A stretch of 64,000 nt of DNA from contig JALRGT010000001.1 in assembly GCA_023259675.1 (NCBI GenBank), forward strand, positions 1 through 64,000. Direction: 5' to 3'. A program made the translations under genes and the position numbers. The notes beneath the pieces were generated by a model. It made no database searches, was not told where the DNA came from, and was given only the letters and a program-made list of their open reading frames with translations. Every line of letters begins with the position of its first letter. Position 1 is the stretch's first letter. Below, piece by piece: positions 4,709 through 22,908 of this stretch. This DNA comes from Flavobacterium sp. GTDB taxonomy: Bacteria; Bacteroidota; Bacteroidia; Flavobacteriales; Flavobacteriaceae.

Positions 4709-4817
4709 CTGTTCCTGGCTATTTAGCCCTGATGGCAGCGATTATCTCCCGATTTAGAAAAACAAGGCTTTTTAGCCGTAGTTTTTATTTATCGGGAATA
4801 TAGCGAACAGCAGGAAT
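4709..4817. repeat. Imperfect inverted-repeat element (REP-like)
   Basis: Nested arms TTCCTG/CAGGAA, GCTAT/ATAGC, TCCCGAT/ATCGGGA with inner GGCTTTTTAGCC hairpin. Confidence 0.55.
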
Positions 4818-4893
4818 CCATTTTTGCTGACAAATCCCTTTCTTTCGCTCCTAAATTATTTCATTAATTTGGAAATGCAAAGTAAAGCAATAG

Positions 4894-4945: not shown

Positions 4946-5998
4946 TTAATTTATCGCTTTTACGACTGCTTTTGGCGCTTCTTTACGCGTTCCGTCAAAT
5001 CCATCTACACCACTTACGGTTGTATATTTCATTACATATTTCTTACCTGGATTGATAATTTGGTAAGCTGCCTGACACATTAAAGTCGCTTCATGGAAAC
5101 CACAAAGAATCAATTTTAATTTCCCAGGATAGGTGTTTACGTCACCGATAGCGAAGATTCCCGGAATATTCGTTTGGTAATCCAAGGAATTATTCACTTT
5201 AATCGCATTTTTCTCAATCTCTAATCCCCAGTTTCCGATAGGACCTAACTTTGGCGTTAATCCGAAAAGTGGAATAAAATAATCACAAGGAATATTTCTG
5301 TGTGCTCCGTTTTCATCAAGATCAACTGACTCAATATGCTCAGCTCCATTTAAACCAACGACTTCAGCAGGCGTAATTAATTTAATTTTTCCAGCATCTT
5401 TTAATTCTTGTACTTTTTCTACAGAATCCAACGCTCCTCTAAATTCATTTCTTCTGTGAACCAAAGTTACTTCGGAAGCAACATTAGAAAGGAAGATACT
5501 CCAGTCTAAGGCTGAATCTCCACCTCCGGCGATCACGACTCTTTTGTCTCTGAATTTCTCTGGATTTTTGATAAAGTATTTAATTCCTTTATCTTCATAG
5601 AAATTAATTCCGTCAATAAGCGGTTTTCTTGGTTCGAAACTTCCTAATCCTCCAGCAATGGCAATCACAGGCGCATGGAATTCTTTCCCTTTATTGGTTG
5701 TAACGATAAAACTTCCGTCCTCTTGTTTTTCAATGGTTTCTGCACGTTCCCCAAGGGTAAAACCCGGCTCAAATTGCTTGATTTGCTCCATTAAGTTATC
5801 CACCAAATCTCCTGCCAATACTTCAGGAAAACCTGGAATATCATAAATTGGTTTCTTAGGATACAATTCTGAAAGTTGTCCACCTGGTTGTGGTAAAGCA
5901 TCCAAAACATGACATTTTAGTTTCAACAAACCTGCTTCAAAAACGGCAAATAAACCTGTTGGTCCTGCTCCTATTATAAGGATATCTGTTTTAATCAT
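4946..5998 (-). CDS. NAD(P)/FAD-dependent oxidoreductase, TrxB-like ferredoxin-NADP reductase type
   Basis: GAGPTGLFAVFEAGL FAD motif, IAGGGDSALDW NADP motif, FAIGDVNTYPGKLKLILCGFHEA; no CxxC. Confidence 0.85.
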   Translation of the reverse strand: MIKTDILIIGAGPTGLFAVFEAGLLKLKCHVLDALPQPGGQLSELYPKKPIYDIPGFPEVLAGDLVDNLMEQIKQFEPGFTLGERAETIEKQEDGSFIVTTNKGKEFHAPVIAIAGGLGSFEPRKPLIDGINFYEDKGIKYFIKNPEKFRDKRVVIAGGGDSALDWSIFLSNVASEVTLVHRRNEFRGALDSVEKVQELKDAGKIKLITPAEVVGLNGAEHIESVDLDENGAHRNIPCDYFIPLFGLTPKLGPIGNWGLEIEKNAIKVNNSLDYQTNIPGIFAIGDVNTYPGKLKLILCGFHEATLMCQAAYQIINPGKKYVMKYTTVSGVDGFDGTRKEAPKAVVKAIN

Positions 5999-6051
5999 TT
6001 TTCTATTGGCTTTTGGCTATTGGTTTTTGACCGTTAGCTATTGTTTATTTA

Positions 6052-6630
6052 TTATTTATTTTTCAGTGTATCCGTGATTTCATTCATTTTTTGAACCTTT
6101 TCCTCAAAATTCCCTTTCAGGGTTTTGCGATATTCATTCAGGTTCTCGACCATTTTATTAATATCATCCGGAATAATTTCTTCAAAAAACTCTCGTAATC
6201 GTTTAGCCGTCGTAGGGGATTTGCCATTGGTTGAAATCGCAATTTTCACATTCCCTTTGGTCACAATGCCCCCCAAATAATAATCGCATAAATCAGGTGT
6301 ATCAGCAATGTTGCAAATTAGATAACGCTTTCGCGATAACTCATACACCTTTTTATTTACTTTCAAATTATCGGTACAGGCAATTACCATATGCCTCTTT
6401 TTTAACATCTTTTTCTTAAACTTGGCTTTCGTCAACTTTACAGAAGGATGTTTTTGTGCTAATTCTTCCAACTCGGGCAAAAATTGCGGTGCTACCACCT
6501 CAACATTTGCATTTGGACTGGACTTCAACAAGAATGACAACTTTTCTAAACCTACATTTCCTCCACCTACAATGAGTACATTGAGGTTATGTAATTTCAA
6601 AAAAATAGGATATAACTCGTTTCTTTCCAT
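6052..6630 (-). CDS. Precorrin-2 dehydrogenase / sirohydrochlorin ferrochelatase (siroheme synthase N-terminal type)
   Basis: NVLIVGGGNVGLEKLSFLL Rossmann motif, TNGKSPTTAKRLREFFEE; adjacent to cobA. Confidence 0.88.
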   Translation of the reverse strand: MERNELYPIFLKLHNLNVLIVGGGNVGLEKLSFLLKSSPNANVEVVAPQFLPELEELAQKHPSVKLTKAKFKKKMLKKRHMVIACTDNLKVNKKVYELSRKRYLICNIADTPDLCDYYLGGIVTKGNVKIAISTNGKSPTTAKRLREFFEEIIPDDINKMVENLNEYRKTLKGNFEEKVQKMNEITDTLKNK

Positions 6631-6636
6631 TTTTAT

Positions 6637-7410
6637 TTATTTTTCAGACTGTACAAATTCCCCGTACAATCCTTTTAATTTATTGATTTCCTTAACTACA
6701 GATCCAATTACAATTATCGCAGGCGAACTCAACTTTTTTTCCTCCACTACTGCTTCTATTGTATTTATGGTTCCAATGCCTATTTTCTCGTCGGGCGTAG
6801 TTCCATTTTGAATAATAGCAATTGCTGTATCTCCTTTGGATTCTTTTTGAAACAACTCGACAATTTGTGCCAACTTACTCATTCCCATCAGAATCACCAC
6901 CGTTGCAGATGATTGAGCCGCTAGAGCGATATCCTCAGACAATTCCCTATCGGAAGTTGTCCCTGTGATTACCCAAAAACTTTCAGAAACACCTCTTTTT
7001 GTCAAAGCAATTCCTTGGTAAGCGGGTACCGCTATCGCCGATGAAATTCCAGGGACGACAAATGTAGGAATTCCAAAACTTTCTGCATATTCTATTTCTT
7101 CACTTCCGCGACCGAAAATAAAAGGATCTCCTCCTTTTAGCCGAACCACATGTCCATGCGTAAAGGCATTGTCCACAATCAACTGATTGATTTCGTCTTG
7201 TGAATAAGCGTGTTTTCCTATTCTTTTCCCAACAAATAACCGAATTGCTTCTTTTGGAGCATAGGCTAATATTTTTTCATTGGCCAAGGCGTCATATAAA
7301 ACCACATTCGCTTCAGCCAATGCTTTTACTCCTTTGAGAGTCAGCAAATCGGGATCGCCCGGACCGGCACCGACTAAAGTTATTTTTGGTTTTATAGTTG
7401 TATTACGCAT
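6637..7410 (-). CDS. cobA: Uroporphyrinogen-III C-methyltransferase
   Basis: LVGAGPGDPDLLTLKGVKAL, VRLKGGDPFIFGRGSEE, VVPGISSAIAVPAYQGIALTHR-like region. Confidence 0.95.
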   Translation of the reverse strand: MRNTTIKPKITLVGAGPGDPDLLTLKGVKALAEANVVLYDALANEKILAYAPKEAIRLFVGKRIGKHAYSQDEINQLIVDNAFTHGHVVRLKGGDPFIFGRGSEEIEYAESFGIPTFVVPGISSAIAVPAYQGIALTKRGVSESFWVITGTTSDRELSEDIALAAQSSATVVILMGMSKLAQIVELFQKESKGDTAIAIIQNGTTPDEKIGIGTINTIEAVVEEKKLSSPAIIVIGSVVKEINKLKGLYGEFVQSEK

Positions 7411-9493
7411 TAGCTAATTCTTTGGCTCTGTAATTTTCAATGGTTTCGAAAAACGAAATTCCTTCTTGAATGTATTGTTTTGCAAAGTCTTCCGATGGCT
7501 CATTAGCTTTTATTTGATACACTAATTCTTTGAATGTTTTTCCTAATTCAATTTTATTAGTATCTATAAAAACAGTATCAAATAAATCAATGATTCCAGC
7601 GTGAGTATTGGTTTTTTGTTTTTCGGCCAATAATAAAGCTTTCGCCCCATTTACTAAACCTGCATATGCCAAGTAAATAGCATCAGACCATTTTTGTTCT
7701 TGGAAAACCTCTTGAGCCGATGTCAATTTGTCTTTAGCTTCCAATAACAAAGTAGCTACTAAATCAATCACAACACCTGCACATTCTCCAACACCAACTG
7801 CTTTCACATAATTATCTGCGTTACCCCAATCTATAAAATCAGCTTCGGTAAGATTGGTAACATCGGCTAACGGTTTCAAGAATTCGTAAAAATATTTCTC
7901 TCCTTTAGCATCATAATAATCTAAGAATCGAGATCCATTAGCATTCGCTTCAAAATCATTTAAGATTAAGCGCAACGCTTCCGGCCCTCTACGGCTTGGA
8001 ATTTTGATTACTTTATCCGAGAATCTTCCGTTTCCGTTTCCTAAAATCCCACCACCCAATAGTACTTGTAATGCCGGCGCCACTAATTTCCCTGAATTGA
8101 TTGACATTCCTTGGAAACCAATTTCGGCCATATTGTGTTGACCACAAGCATTCATACAACCACTAATTTTGATAGCAATCTCTGTATTATTGGCAAATTG
8201 TGGGTATTCTGCTTTTAAGACTCTTTCTAATTCGTCTGCAATACCCGTACTGCTTGCAATTCCTAAGTTACAAGTATCTGTACCAGGACAAGCCGTGATA
8301 TCACCAATAGTATTGTAACCTAAGTTAACCATATCTAATTTGGCTAATTCTTGGTAAAAGAATGCCAGATTTTCTTCTTTAATATTACGCAAAACGATAT
8401 TTTGTCTTAATGAAAAACGCAATTCATTTGCACCGTAATTTTTAATCAAATCAGCTAATAATCTCGCTTTATCTGTATAAAAATCCCCTAAAAGAACTTT
8501 AATTCCGATAGCTACATATCCCGCTTGTTTTTGTGGAATCACATTCGATTTTTTCCAAGCTTCAAAAGCTTCAACATCTTCAATAGTTACTATTGGCACT
8601 TCTAATAATGGTTCAGCAATAGCACCTTCAAAAGCAGTGGTATCAATCTCGTAAGTATGGAAAGGCAATGCTTTTTTCTCTTCGTCAACCAAACGTAAAA
8701 ACTCATCACGTCCTAAGTCTTTAATCAAAAACTTCATACGTGCTTTTAGACGTTTTGCTCTTTCTCCGTAACGGTCAAAAACTCGAATTACACCTTCGGC
8801 AGTTGGAATAATTTGGTTTACCGGTACAAATTCTGAAAGTAATTCGGCATGACTTGGCTGAGAACCTAATCCTCCACCTAACATTATTTTGAATCCTTTT
8901 TGACCATTTACAATTTTTGGAATAAATCCTAAATCATGCAAATAGCTTAAAGCAGTATCCTCATCAGATGAAGAAAATGATATTTTGAATTTACGTCCCA
9001 TTTCTTGGCAAATTGGGTTACGCAATAAATATTGAAATAAACCGTGAGCGTACGGAGAAACATCAAAAGGTTCGTTTACATCTACACCTGCCAATTCACT
9101 GGCCGTAATATTACGTACCGTGTTTCCACAAGCTTCTCTTAAAGTAATATCGTCTTTGGCTAATTCTGACCAAAGTTCTGGCGTTCTATCTAAACTCACA
9201 TAATGAATCTGAATATCCTGACGTGTTGTAATATGCAAACGTCCCGTAGAATATTTATCTGAAACTTCAGTAATTCTTTTTAATTGCTCACTGGTTACTT
9301 TTCCGTAAGGCAATTTAATACGAATCATCTGTACCCCTTCCTGACGTTGTCCGTAAATTCCACGAGCCAAACGAAGACTACGAAAACGCTCGTCGTCAAT
9401 TTGACCACCACGGAATAAATGAATCTTTTTCTCTAAATCGATAATCTCTTTCTCGACAATCGGGTTTTCTATTTCGCTTCTAAAAGTTTTCAT
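7403..9493 (-). CDS. Sulfite/nitrite reductase (siroheme, ferredoxin type) with C-terminal HEPN-like domain
   Basis: Siroheme/4Fe-4S motifs TACPGTDTCNLG and KISGCMNACGQHNMAEIGFQG; extra ~120 aa helical C-terminus (WSDAIYLAYAGLVNGAKALLLAEKQKTNTHAG). Confidence 0.92.
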   Translation of the reverse strand: MKTFRSEIENPIVEKEIIDLEKKIHLFRGGQIDDERFRSLRLARGIYGQRQEGVQMIRIKLPYGKVTSEQLKRITEVSDKYSTGRLHITTRQDIQIHYVSLDRTPELWSELAKDDITLREACGNTVRNITASELAGVDVNEPFDVSPYAHGLFQYLLRNPICQEMGRKFKISFSSSDEDTALSYLHDLGFIPKIVNGQKGFKIMLGGGLGSQPSHAELLSEFVPVNQIIPTAEGVIRVFDRYGERAKRLKARMKFLIKDLGRDEFLRLVDEEKKALPFHTYEIDTTAFEGAIAEPLLEVPIVTIEDVEAFEAWKKSNVIPQKQAGYVAIGIKVLLGDFYTDKARLLADLIKNYGANELRFSLRQNIVLRNIKEENLAFFYQELAKLDMVNLGYNTIGDITACPGTDTCNLGIASSTGIADELERVLKAEYPQFANNTEIAIKISGCMNACGQHNMAEIGFQGMSINSGKLVAPALQVLLGGGILGNGNGRFSDKVIKIPSRRGPEALRLILNDFEANANGSRFLDYYDAKGEKYFYEFLKPLADVTNLTEADFIDWGNADNYVKAVGVGECAGVVIDLVATLLLEAKDKLTSAQEVFQEQKWSDAIYLAYAGLVNGAKALLLAEKQKTNTHAGIIDLFDTVFIDTNKIELGKTFKELVYQIKANEPSEDFAKQYIQEGISFFETIENYRAKELANA

Positions 9494-20116: not shown

Positions 20117-20126
20117 AATTCTTATT

Positions 20127-20230
20127 GTTATCTTTCCACGTGGGACGTGGTAGAATGCAGCACCTTCTTCGATTTACCGAAGGGTTGCTAAGGTTTCATC
20201 GGGTCTAATCCCTCTACCTTTCTTTATAAC
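20127..20230 (-). ncRNA. SAM-I (S-box) riboswitch upstream of metX
   Basis: Minus strand GTTATAAAGAAAGGTAGAGGGATTAGACCCGATGAAACCTTAGCAACC-(CTTCGGTAAATCGAAG)-AAGGTGCTGCATTCTACC-(ACGTCCCACGT)-GGAAAGATAAC; P1 GTTAT/ATAAC, S-box core GATGAAACC, AGCAACC, AAGGTGCT. Confidence 0.93.
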
Positions 20231-20258
20231 ATTTCATTACATTTTGAACTTCAAAGCA

Positions 20259-20290
20259 CAAATTAACCACTATTTTTTTAAACAACCAAA
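20259..20290 (-). promoter_or_regulatory. Putative metX promoter
   Basis: -33 TTTGG, 20-nt spacer, TTAATTTG just upstream of the SAM-I element. Confidence 0.4.
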
Positions 20291-20457: not shown

Positions 20458-20661
20458 TTAGATAAAAAAAGCTTCATTCTCTTTTGAATACATTAAAAAA
20501 AGATGGGTATTAATGATTTTTTTATTCGCTTTTATATCTTTAGATTTCATTCCAAATCTGGGGTGTATTAATTCATTTTCTGCAGCATTAACAGTTGCTT
20601 CATTTCTATTTCTAAAATTGAAATTCAGCGCATTTTCTAGGAGGTATAGTATTTTTCTCAT
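20458..20661 (-). CDS. Hypothetical 67-aa protein
   Basis: Hydrophilic ORF in the metX upstream region; an opposite-strand ORF overlaps, so coding status is uncertain. Confidence 0.3.
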   Translation of the reverse strand: MRKILYLLENALNFNFRNRNEATVNAAENELIHPRFGMKSKDIKANKKIINTHLFLMYSKENEAFFI

Positions 20662-20706
20662 GACTATAGGTATTACGGATTATATATTTTTATTTTCAAC
20701 AAATTC

Positions 20707-20760
20707 AATTCAACAAAAAACCCTTTTGGAAAAAATACCAAAAGGGTTTAAGTTGAATTA
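20707..20760 (-). terminator. Strong rho-independent terminator after third sORF
   Basis: Minus strand AATTCAACTTAAACCCTTTTGG-TATTTTTT-CCAAAAGGGTTTTTTGTTGAATT. Confidence 0.8.
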
Positions 20761-20778
20761 TTCACTTTTCTTTCGGTA

Positions 20779-20868
20779 TCAACAGACATAAATGACCATA
20801 GCAGACTTTTTACAAGTCATTGCATTTTTTTTGGAATTATTAAACTGCTGTGTATTTAAATTTTTCAT
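20779..20868 (-). CDS. Candidate sORF (29 aa): MKNLNTQQFNNSKKNAMTCKKSAMVIYVC
   Basis: ATG to TGA read directly; lies between two terminators; the segment just after its stop pairs with the downstream terminator's 5' arm. Confidence 0.35.
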   Translation of the reverse strand: MKNLNTQQFNNSKKNAMTCKKSAMVIYVC

Positions 20869-20885
20869 TTTAGAATTGTAAGATT

Positions 20886-20920
20886 AAAAAAAAAGCCTCC
20901 CGTTTTGCGGGAGGCTTTTT
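20886..20920 (-). terminator. Rho-independent terminator of leader unit 1
   Basis: Minus strand AAAGCCTCCCG-CAAAA-CGGGAGGCTTTTTTTTT. Confidence 0.9.
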
Positions 20921-20942
20921 GCTTTATATTATAGTTTATAAC

Positions 20943-21011
20943 TTAAGCAATAGTCGACCCGCAGGACTTATCCTGAACCTTTTTCGACATATTACATACA
21001 TTAAAAATCAT
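20943..21011 (-). CDS. Candidate leader peptide 1 (22 aa): MIFNVCNMSKKVQDKSCGSTIA
   Basis: Same length and same C-terminus CGxTIA-stop as the sORF upstream of metY; same promoter and palindrome upstream; terminator immediately downstream. Confidence 0.6.
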   Translation of the reverse strand: MIFNVCNMSKKVQDKSCGSTIA

Positions 21012-21031
21012 CTTTCTTATTTTTTGTTGAA

Positions 21032-21063
21032 CAAATTTGCAAAGAAATATTGGAATATCCAAA
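21032..21063 (-). promoter_or_regulatory. Promoter plus palindrome of leader unit 1
   Basis: Minus strand TTTGGATATTCCAATATTTCTTTGCAAATTTG: -33 TTTG, 20-nt spacer, CAAATTTG; overlapping palindrome TTGGA-TAT-TCCAA. Confidence 0.5.
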
Positions 21064-21177
21064 TATTCTTAAAAAAAAACACATTCCCTTACTTAAATCA
21101 GTTGGCATAAATTAGTTAGACTACTTAATTTTACTTTAATAAAACTTCTACGAAAACTAATAGCACAAACCAGTCAA

Positions 21178-22452
21178 TTATAAAGTGTCAAAAACGGCTT
21201 TCAAATCGGCTTTCAAATCTTCTACGTTTTCTAATCCTACTGAAATTCGAATTAAATCTTTAGAAACTCCGGAACTCAATTGTTGCTCTTCTGATAATTG
21301 TTGGTGCGTAGTACTTGACGGATGAATGATCAATGATTTAGTATCTCCAATATTAGCTAACAATGAAAACAATTTGGTTTCATCAGCAACTTTCTTAGCC
21401 GCATCAAATCCTCCTTTTAACCCAAAAGTTACCAAACCATTTTGCCCTTTCGGTAAATATTGTTTTGCTAAATCATAGTATTTACTCGACTTCAATCCCG
21501 GATAGTTCACCCATGCCACTTGGTCTTGTTCTTCTAACCAATGAGCTATTGCCAAACCATTTTCACTATGTTTTTGTACACGAATAGCCAAGGTTTCTAA
21601 TCCCTGTATAATTTGAAAGGCATTAAACGGACTCAATGCTGCTCCATAATCTCGTAATCCCTCAATTCTTACTTTAGCAATAAATGCAGCCGCTCCCAAA
21701 GCATCATGATAAACCAACCCATGATATCCTGAATTCGGTTCAGTAAACTCCGGAAAACGCCCACTACTCCAGTCAAAAGTTCCTGCATCAATAATTGCCC
21801 CTCCTAAAGAAGTTCCGTTACCCGCTATATATTTAGTCAAAGAATGAATTACAATATTGGCTCCATAAGCAATTGGATTCAACAAATACGGAGAAGCCAC
21901 CGTATTATCAACCACAAATGGCACTTTTAAAGCCTTAGCCACAGCAGCAATAGATTTCAAATCCAATACATCTAATTTTGGATTCCCTAAACTTTCCACA
22001 AAAACAACTTTCGTATTGTCATTGGCTGCTTTCTTAAAATTTTCTGCATCCGATGGATCAACAAAGGTGGTTGTGATTCCAAGTCTTGGTAAAGTTGAAC
22101 TTAACAAATTGAAGGTCCCTCCATATAAACTACTGGAAGCAACTATATGATCGCCTGTTTTAAGCATAGTCAACAATGCCGTAGCAATCGCTGCAGTTCC
22201 CGAGGCAGTAACCACAGCCGCAATTCCACCTTCAAGAGCCGCTAATCGTTGCTCCAAAATATCATTCGTTGGATTATTTAATCTTGTGTAAATAAATCCT
22301 GCTTCTGCTAATCCAAATAAATTAGCAGCATGCTCAGAATTATTAAAAACATAGGAAGAAGTTTGGTAAATAGGAACAGCTCTTGTTCCAGCATGTTGTG
22401 TAACATCGTGTCCTGCATGCAGGGCATTGGTTTCAAAGTTTAATGTACTCAT
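21178..22452 (-). CDS. metY: O-acetylhomoserine sulfhydrylase (PLP)
   Basis: ETNALHAGHDVTQHAGTRAVPIYQTSSYVF, SLTKYIAGNGTSLGG, IIHPSSTTHQQLSEEQ; ~424 aa typical of MetY. Confidence 0.95.
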   Translation of the reverse strand: MSTLNFETNALHAGHDVTQHAGTRAVPIYQTSSYVFNNSEHAANLFGLAEAGFIYTRLNNPTNDILEQRLAALEGGIAAVVTASGTAAIATALLTMLKTGDHIVASSSLYGGTFNLLSSTLPRLGITTTFVDPSDAENFKKAANDNTKVVFVESLGNPKLDVLDLKSIAAVAKALKVPFVVDNTVASPYLLNPIAYGANIVIHSLTKYIAGNGTSLGGAIIDAGTFDWSSGRFPEFTEPNSGYHGLVYHDALGAAAFIAKVRIEGLRDYGAALSPFNAFQIIQGLETLAIRVQKHSENGLAIAHWLEEQDQVAWVNYPGLKSSKYYDLAKQYLPKGQNGLVTFGLKGGFDAAKKVADETKLFSLLANIGDTKSLIIHPSSTTHQQLSEEQQLSSGVSKDLIRISVGLENVEDLKADLKAVFDTL

Positions 22453-22482
22453 GTTTATTTGTTTTTTAATTAATATTTATTC

Positions 22483-22514
22483 AAAAAAAAAGCCTTCCAA
22501 TTTCTCGGGAGGCT
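22483..22514 (-). terminator. Attenuator terminator upstream of metY
   Basis: Minus strand AGCCTCCC-GAGAAATT-GGAAGGCTTTTTTTTT, with one C/A mismatch in the stem, 31 nt before the metY ATG. Confidence 0.75.
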
Positions 22515-22537
22515 AAACTTATATTGATGAATTCAGT

Positions 22538-22606
22538 TTAAGCAATAGTATACCCGCAGAAAAAACTCTGTTTGGACATACACATTGTAAACTTTATTTC
22601 TTTCAT
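22538..22606 (-). CDS. Candidate leader peptide 2 (22 aa): MKEIKFTMCMSKQSFFCGYTIA
   Basis: ATG to TAA read directly; last 22 nt CTGCGGGTATACTATTGCTTAA are 20/22 identical to leader 1; followed by terminator then metY. Confidence 0.65.
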   Translation of the reverse strand: MKEIKFTMCMSKQSFFCGYTIA

Positions 22607-22625
22607 TTTTTATTATTTTGGAACT

Positions 22626-22657
22626 CAAATTTCCAATCTTATTTTGGATTATCCAAA
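22626..22657 (-). promoter_or_regulatory. Promoter plus palindrome of metY leader
   Basis: Minus strand TTTGGATAATCCAAAATAAGATTGGAAATTTG: same -33/-7 spacing (20 nt) and palindrome as leader unit 1. Confidence 0.5.
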
Positions 22658-22781
22658 TGATTTCAATTAAATTAACATTTGTTTACTGACTAATTTTAAT
22701 ATTTAATAATCCCTAAACGGGATTCAAATTTTTAATTTAAAAAATTCGTTACTATTAATTTACAATTCGAAAATGGTTTCA

Positions 22782-22789: not shown

Positions 22790-22800
22790 CACCCGAATAC

Positions 22801-22908
22801 AAGAGGAAAAATTTGAACTGATTGCAACCTCTTCATAATGAAACGAATTCATTATGGATACTGAAAAGTTTTCAGTAGAAAAAAATGCTAAAGCAGAAAC
22901 TCTCCTTT
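22801..22908 (+). ncRNA. Structured 5' leader of metK, probable SAM-responsive S-box-like element
   Basis: AAGAGGAAAAATTTGAACTGATTGCAACC, hairpins CATAATGAA/TTCATTATG and TACTGAAAA/TTTTCAGTA, then AATGCTAAAGCAG and CTCT; GCAACC and TGCTAA resemble S-box core strings. Confidence 0.5.

Follow-up and report, generated by a model that had tools for sequence, protein, structure and literature searches.

Between metY and metX in a Flavobacterium genome lies a short open reading frame followed by an intrinsic terminator, which raises the question of what such an element controls and to which signal it responds. A sequence-only reading of the window (the whole 64-kb stretch of DNA analysed here) had taken this element, leader 1, for a second copy of the leader unit of metY, orphaned from any adjacent gene, and had proposed that it acts as a stand-alone sRNA or peptide, or as the first stage of a long metX leader. 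The first part of this proposal was borne out: leader 1 is a second copy of the metY unit, with the layout of an attenuator with competing hairpins. The remark that no large gene directly follows is true to the letter, but what does follow is a second, different leader attenuator (unit B'), which that reading had missed, and then a conserved 67-codon gene, orf67; since both lie directly downstream on the minus strand, the leader is not orphaned. With a probability of roughly 0.8, we read leader 1, a homologue of the metY leader, as the first unit (A') of two tandem trp-type, ribosome-mediated attenuators, A' and then B', which would control orf67 and respond to Met-tRNA, perhaps also to Cys-tRNA. 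The features of the locus are as follows.

22538..22606 (-), ORF of leader 2, the unit A of metY; peptide MKEIKFTMCMSKQSFFCGYTIA-stop
22491..22514 (-), terminator of leader 2, imperfect
21178..22452 (-), metY ORF, judged from sequence resemblance and context to be of the O-acetylhomoserine sulfhydrylase type
21032..21063 (-), probable promoter of leader 1: -33 element TTTG (21063-21060) and -7 element CAAATTTG (21039-21032), with the ATG 20 nt on
20943..21011 (-), ORF of leader 1 (unit A'), 22 aa, ATG at 21011; peptide MIFNVCNMSKKVQDKSCGSTIA-stop
20962..20975 (-), predicted 1:2 hairpin inside the leader 1 ORF: CAGGA (20975-20971) with TCCTG (20966-20962)
20906..20963 (-), predicted antiterminator of leader 1: TGCGGG (20963-20958) with CCCGCA (20911-20906)
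about 20950-20946 with 20923-20919 (-), predicted second antiterminator helix of leader 1: TTGCT with AGCAA
20890..20920 (-), intrinsic terminator of leader 1, 13 perfect bp and a T-run
20779..20868 (-), second leader ORF (unit B'); peptide MKNLNTQQFNNSKKNAMTCKKSAMVIYVC-stop
20734..20780 (-), predicted antiterminator of unit B': GATACCGAAAG (20780-20770) with CTTTTGGTATT (20744-20734)
20718..20749 (-), intrinsic terminator of unit B', AAACCCTTTTGG..CCAAAAGGGTTT
20458..20661 (-), orf67, the conserved 67-codon gene 3' of the tandem attenuator
20259..20290 (-), probable separate metX promoter: TTTG (20290-20287), N20, TTAATTTG (20266-20259)
20125..20232 (-), SAM-I riboswitch of metX, Rfam RF00162, 78.3 bits
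19087..20055 (-), metX ORF with conserved synteny, homoserine acetyltransferase by sequence resemblance and context

The kinship of the two A units was confirmed on the sequence. As had been described, leader 1 encodes 22 aa with Met at codon 8, Gln (CAG) at 13, Cys at 17 and a CGxTIA ending, matching leader 2, and its last 22 nt are identical to the metY copy at 20 positions; the CAGGA/TCCTG hairpin and the TGCGGG:CCCGCA pairing were both verified, as was the contrast between the perfect terminator of leader 1 and the imperfect one at metY. An nAnnTTTG element stands at similar spacing ahead of nearly all unit A starts in relatives. At each of the two leader promoters a near-palindrome, TTGGATNATCCAA, extends over part of the -33 region (21048-21062, 22640-22656), and no conservation of it was found in relatives.

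The window contains just two occurrences of the tail motif of the leaders, CTGCGGGTNNACTATTGCTTAA, also when up to three mismatches are allowed, and 100 dinucleotide shuffles gave none. Only these two copies were real in the genome-wide search (3.4 Mb, 82% complete); a third match carried three mismatches, and a reversed-pattern control equalled the match count. At E < 0.01, covariance models retrieved just two A units and one B unit from the genome, copies that themselves belong to the models; the matches of leader 1 (20890-21011, E 7.6e-15) and unit B' (20715-20868, E 6.3e-21) are expected by construction, both sequences being included in the models. Weaker matches in the same genome (L163 and L201, E 0.02-0.03) had no Met gene near them. 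A motif search of 200 genomes of the genus with three mismatches gave mostly noise, as judged from the reversed-pattern control, and metY synteny worked better.

The leader motif does recur in other genomes, as had been anticipated. Analysis of metY neighbourhoods from 100 related genomes revealed that in most Flavobacterium this gene lies behind unit A, unit B or the two together; a metY orthologue 93% identical to that of the window carries the same leader type. Unit A peptides resemble MNFTMCNMCMMMWNNPQRKPIA-stop and unit B peptides MNVIAKNMMMSCMMMRTMCCIDISYYHKRKT-stop, and the metY-linked peptides of both kinds are Met-rich, with up to 10 internal Met. Such units also precede metY in some other genera of the Flavobacteriaceae (L126, L129, L130, L136, L137, L142, L147, L153), and in a different family of the same order (L080) the leader ends in ...LIMMMSLSMMMWMQSVYMKV-stop. 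The distribution is patchy, because many metY loci outside the genus carry no A or B unit. Further targets of unit A are metX, osmC with a homoserine-dehydrogenase-like gene, and a TonB receptor adjoining metY. In some large-genome Flavobacterium (L069, reverse complement 5604-8639), a Met-rich unit A lies before a TonB-dependent receptor upstream of metY, which suggests that an uptake gene is regulated by Met or sulfur. In genomes without a metY match above the cut-off (L187, L196), unit A precedes the OsmC-like and homoserine-dehydrogenase-like genes, divergent from metK. Met-codon leaders before methionine genes are a widespread and almost undescribed family in these bacteria.

Folding predicted in each unit an ORF-internal hairpin (1:2, tested for unit A), an antiterminator (2:3) and a terminator (3:4), with segment 2 made up of the last codons (in some B units, of nucleotides just past the stop codon) and pairing with the 5' arm of the terminator. 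The 1:2 hairpin of 68 A units scored 12.6, compared with 9.4 (sd 2.5) in shuffles. Cognate antiterminator pairings scored 16.0 in A units and 18.9 in B units, against 12.9 and 17.1 for shuffled partners, and the cognate score was never matched in 10,000 permutations (68 A and 60 B units), a test that is inflated by relatedness. The A alignment contains two pairing registers, the CCTCCCGC and CCTCTGC types, and the compensatory pair types comprise GCAGAGG:CCTCTGC, GCAGCG:CGCTGC, GCAGGG:CCCTGC, TGTGGG:CCCACA and TGCGGG:CCCGCA. Relatedness alone would hardly explain why different clades build the same predicted helix from different sequences. Upstream of the terminator, AGCAA or CAAT(A) offers the conserved ATTGCT tail a partner for a predicted second antiterminator helix (p 0.001). 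The units thus combine a short ORF that lies near the promoter and ends just before an intrinsic terminator with mutually exclusive antiterminator and terminator helices kept by covariation, and their predicted role as attenuators is well supported.

An Rfam search of positions 20650-22700 gave no riboswitch or T-box family at gathering score; sub-threshold matches to Phe_leader and Thr_leader near the terminator were dismissed, as they occur on both strands. Elsewhere in the window, the Flavo-1 RNA motif (RF01705) was detected at 4721-4821 (+), barely at gathering score.

A switch of fold with ribosome position, also characteristic of trp-type attenuators, emerged from constrained folding, in which the ribosome footprint was masked and the terminator-arm and loop nucleotides paired upstream were counted. 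With the ribosome stalled at Met, this number was 8.7 in A units (n=67) and 11.9 in B units (n=60), compared with 3.7 and 5.3 with the ribosome at the stop codon. Leader 1 gave 12.8 with the ribosome at Met8 and 1.3 with it at the stop, and unit B' of the window showed a small modelled difference (10.5-10.9 versus 8.0). As naked RNA, leader 1, unlike leader 2 (0.4), favours the antiterminator (12.9), so an untranslated leader 1 would read through. Any upstream stall frees segment 2 in this folding test, and the specificity for Met therefore rests on codon content.

Under the proposed mechanism, RNA polymerase would start about 20 nt ahead of the leader 1 ATG. When charged Met-tRNA, and possibly Cys-tRNA, is scarce, the ribosome would pause at the internal Met (and Cys) codons, leaving TGCGGG and TTGCT free to pair with CCCGCA and AGCAA, so that no terminator forms. 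When Met is plentiful, the ribosome would reach the stop codon and cover TGCGGG, and the 13-bp terminator would halt transcription. A polymerase that passes A' would meet the same decision at unit B' before orf67. Methionine is a special case among such signals, because its shortage also limits initiator tRNA. From sequence and folding we infer that the leaders are translated, which amino acid they sense and that this regulation operates in the cell; the tandem leaders probably switch on orf67 when methionine is short.

Relatives of orf67 are encoded in 139 genomic stretches in GTDB genomes; among the 80 matches listed, all come from Flavobacterium or unnamed Flavobacteriaceae, except for one record labelled [Flexibacter]. 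The protein has 67 aa and a conserved C-terminus (...NSLLFLMYSKENETLFI), and its gene adjoins Met genes in Flavobacterium. In most close pairs dN/dS is 0.1-0.5, indicative of purifying selection; judged by its conservation, the 67-codon ORF is a real gene. Searches of Pfam and NCBIfam gave no family match and no solved structure was matched, and the AlphaFold model is of low confidence (pLDDT 59, pTM 0.22). Unit B' lies directly ahead of orf67 in 78 of the 80 named loci (80 listed of 139), and both A' and B' were detected in 42; the metY-orf67-metX locus of F. johnsoniae has a CCTTTTGG terminator. In a few species (L065, L087, L092), orf67 directly follows metY, downstream of the metY leaders. 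In each of the 75 loci checked, that of the window among them, a promoter-like element and a SAM riboswitch core separate orf67 from metX, and the SAM-I riboswitch of metX was in the same place in all eight relatives scanned. Since metX has this promoter-like element and SAM core of its own, orf67 and not metX is most likely the gene that the leader 1 pair serves, leader 1 is probably separate from the metX leader, and the proposal that it forms the first stage of such a leader is unlikely to hold, although transcriptional read-through from the pair into metX may occur.

As regards the signal, Met makes up 15% of the internal residues in metY-linked A peptides and 20% in B peptides, shares that carry the requirement for at least one internal Met with which these units were collected. 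Without this filter, the orf67-linked B' peptides have a mean of 3.0 internal Met (99% with at least one, p 1e-7) and the A' peptides a mean of 1.1 (90%, p 2e-4), whereas the remaining sORF-terminator pairs at the same loci average 0.8. Sensing of methionine by the family is supported by this codon content. The leaders of the window are Met-poor members (two internal Met in leader 2, one in leader 1, two in B'), and the case for Met sensing is weaker for leader 1 alone than for the family. Because leader 1 has a single internal Met and A' has none in four relatives (L063, L064, L081, L103), A' may sense Met weakly or no longer, or may have come to rely on Cys instead. It is possible, though less likely than not, that A' is a decaying copy of the metY unit in which terminator and antiterminator persist while the Met sensor is being lost. 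A' would then terminate partially at all times or sense translation in general, and the regulation of orf67 would be left to B', which keeps about three Met. The failure to detect A' before orf67 in 36 of the 80 named loci, F. johnsoniae included, fits such decay; the retention of internal Met in 90% of distinct A' peptides, of a nearby Cys in most, and of a perfect terminator and a strong antiterminator in leader 1 argues against it. A joint Cys and Met signal is possible, because Cys is enriched too (5-7% in A' and B', 2% in other sORFs), and several A' peptides that have lost Met retain Cys6. That the unit responds to Cys, alone or jointly with Met, rather than to Met alone is nevertheless unlikely, though not far-fetched, given that the targets are Met genes and that Met runs dominate the metY units, two of which (L078, L079) have a single Cys or none.

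The strongly conserved Ile-Ala/Val-stop end of unit A might instead mark a TnaC-like arrest peptide, whose C-terminal (T/S/P)IA and stop codon would stall the ribosome. We consider this improbable: the conserved codons are themselves part of the antiterminator (ATTGCT:AGCAA, TATTG:CAATA), the residues before them vary (CG, QR, AG, AE), and in the folding model arrest at the stop codon would promote termination. Action of leader 1 as a stand-alone sRNA of about 130 nt or as a functional micropeptide appears highly improbable, and this reading is not needed. The perfect terminator would end a transcript of that length, and attenuated leaders can act in trans, as described for peTrpL (PMC7298713); the leader unit, however, precedes B' and orf67 in many species, and its peptide diverges while the pairings covary. 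The reading of leader 1 as the first of two attenuators before orf67 remains the one that we prefer.

Attenuation of the trp type is a textbook mechanism, and Met genes are usually under the control of SAM riboswitches, T-boxes or MetJ. The units described here share with trp/his-type attenuators the short ORF containing codons of the amino acid presumed to be sensed, the 1:2, 2:3 and 3:4 pairings and the terminator before the gene, but differ in the Met codons, the two different attenuators in series, the Bacteroidota host and the conserved 67-aa gene downstream. The SAM-II riboswitch ahead of metK (22797-22901, +) and the SAM-I riboswitch ahead of metX flank the Met-leader units, so that three kinds of RNA sensor lie within about 3 kb. 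As is proposed for the leaders, SAM-I and SAM-II (RF00162, RF01726) control Met/SAM genes at this locus; they differ in sensing SAM through an aptamer, and none of the leaders gave an Rfam match at gathering score. The predicted metL leader before metNIQ of Streptomyces lividans also contains Met, but it is a single leaderless unit with no clear terminator, belongs to a transport operon and comes from another phylum (PMC8079986). To Naville and Gautheret in 2010, leader-peptide systems were known only from Proteobacteria and Actinobacteria, and they added Firmicutes (PMC2965389). Within the genus of the window, the 2021 transcriptome of F. psychrophilum mentions, in one general sentence, 'strong clues' that operons for amino-acid biosynthesis are subject to leader-peptide attenuation; its main text does not mention methionine, and its supplement may list some of these loci (PMC9723704). 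A search of the open-access literature turned up no account of the 67-aa family, nor of Met attenuators in tandem. The class of mechanism is known; what appears undescribed, the F. psychrophilum sentence apart, is the small protein and the use of tandem, Met-specific attenuators in Bacteroidota.

There are few descriptions of leader-peptide attenuation from Bacteroidota, and next to none of a Met-specific version from any organism in the literature searched. We put forward, as a tentative proposal, that Flavobacterium runs its Met genes through tandem Met-codon attenuators, two serial gates that must both open, beside SAM-I and SAM-II, and that the same device switches on orf67 as an effector of Met or sulfur starvation. 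If this is true, severe starvation, by limiting initiator tRNA as well, could close again any gate whose RNA tends to terminate when untranslated, as in leader 2, whereas gates that read through as naked RNA, as in leader 1, would escape this. The presence of Met-codon leaders, SAM-I and SAM-II at one locus allows one to ask why bacteria read the amino acid and the cofactor separately, and the locus suggests a part in the Met response for an unannotated small protein of Flavobacterium and near relatives.
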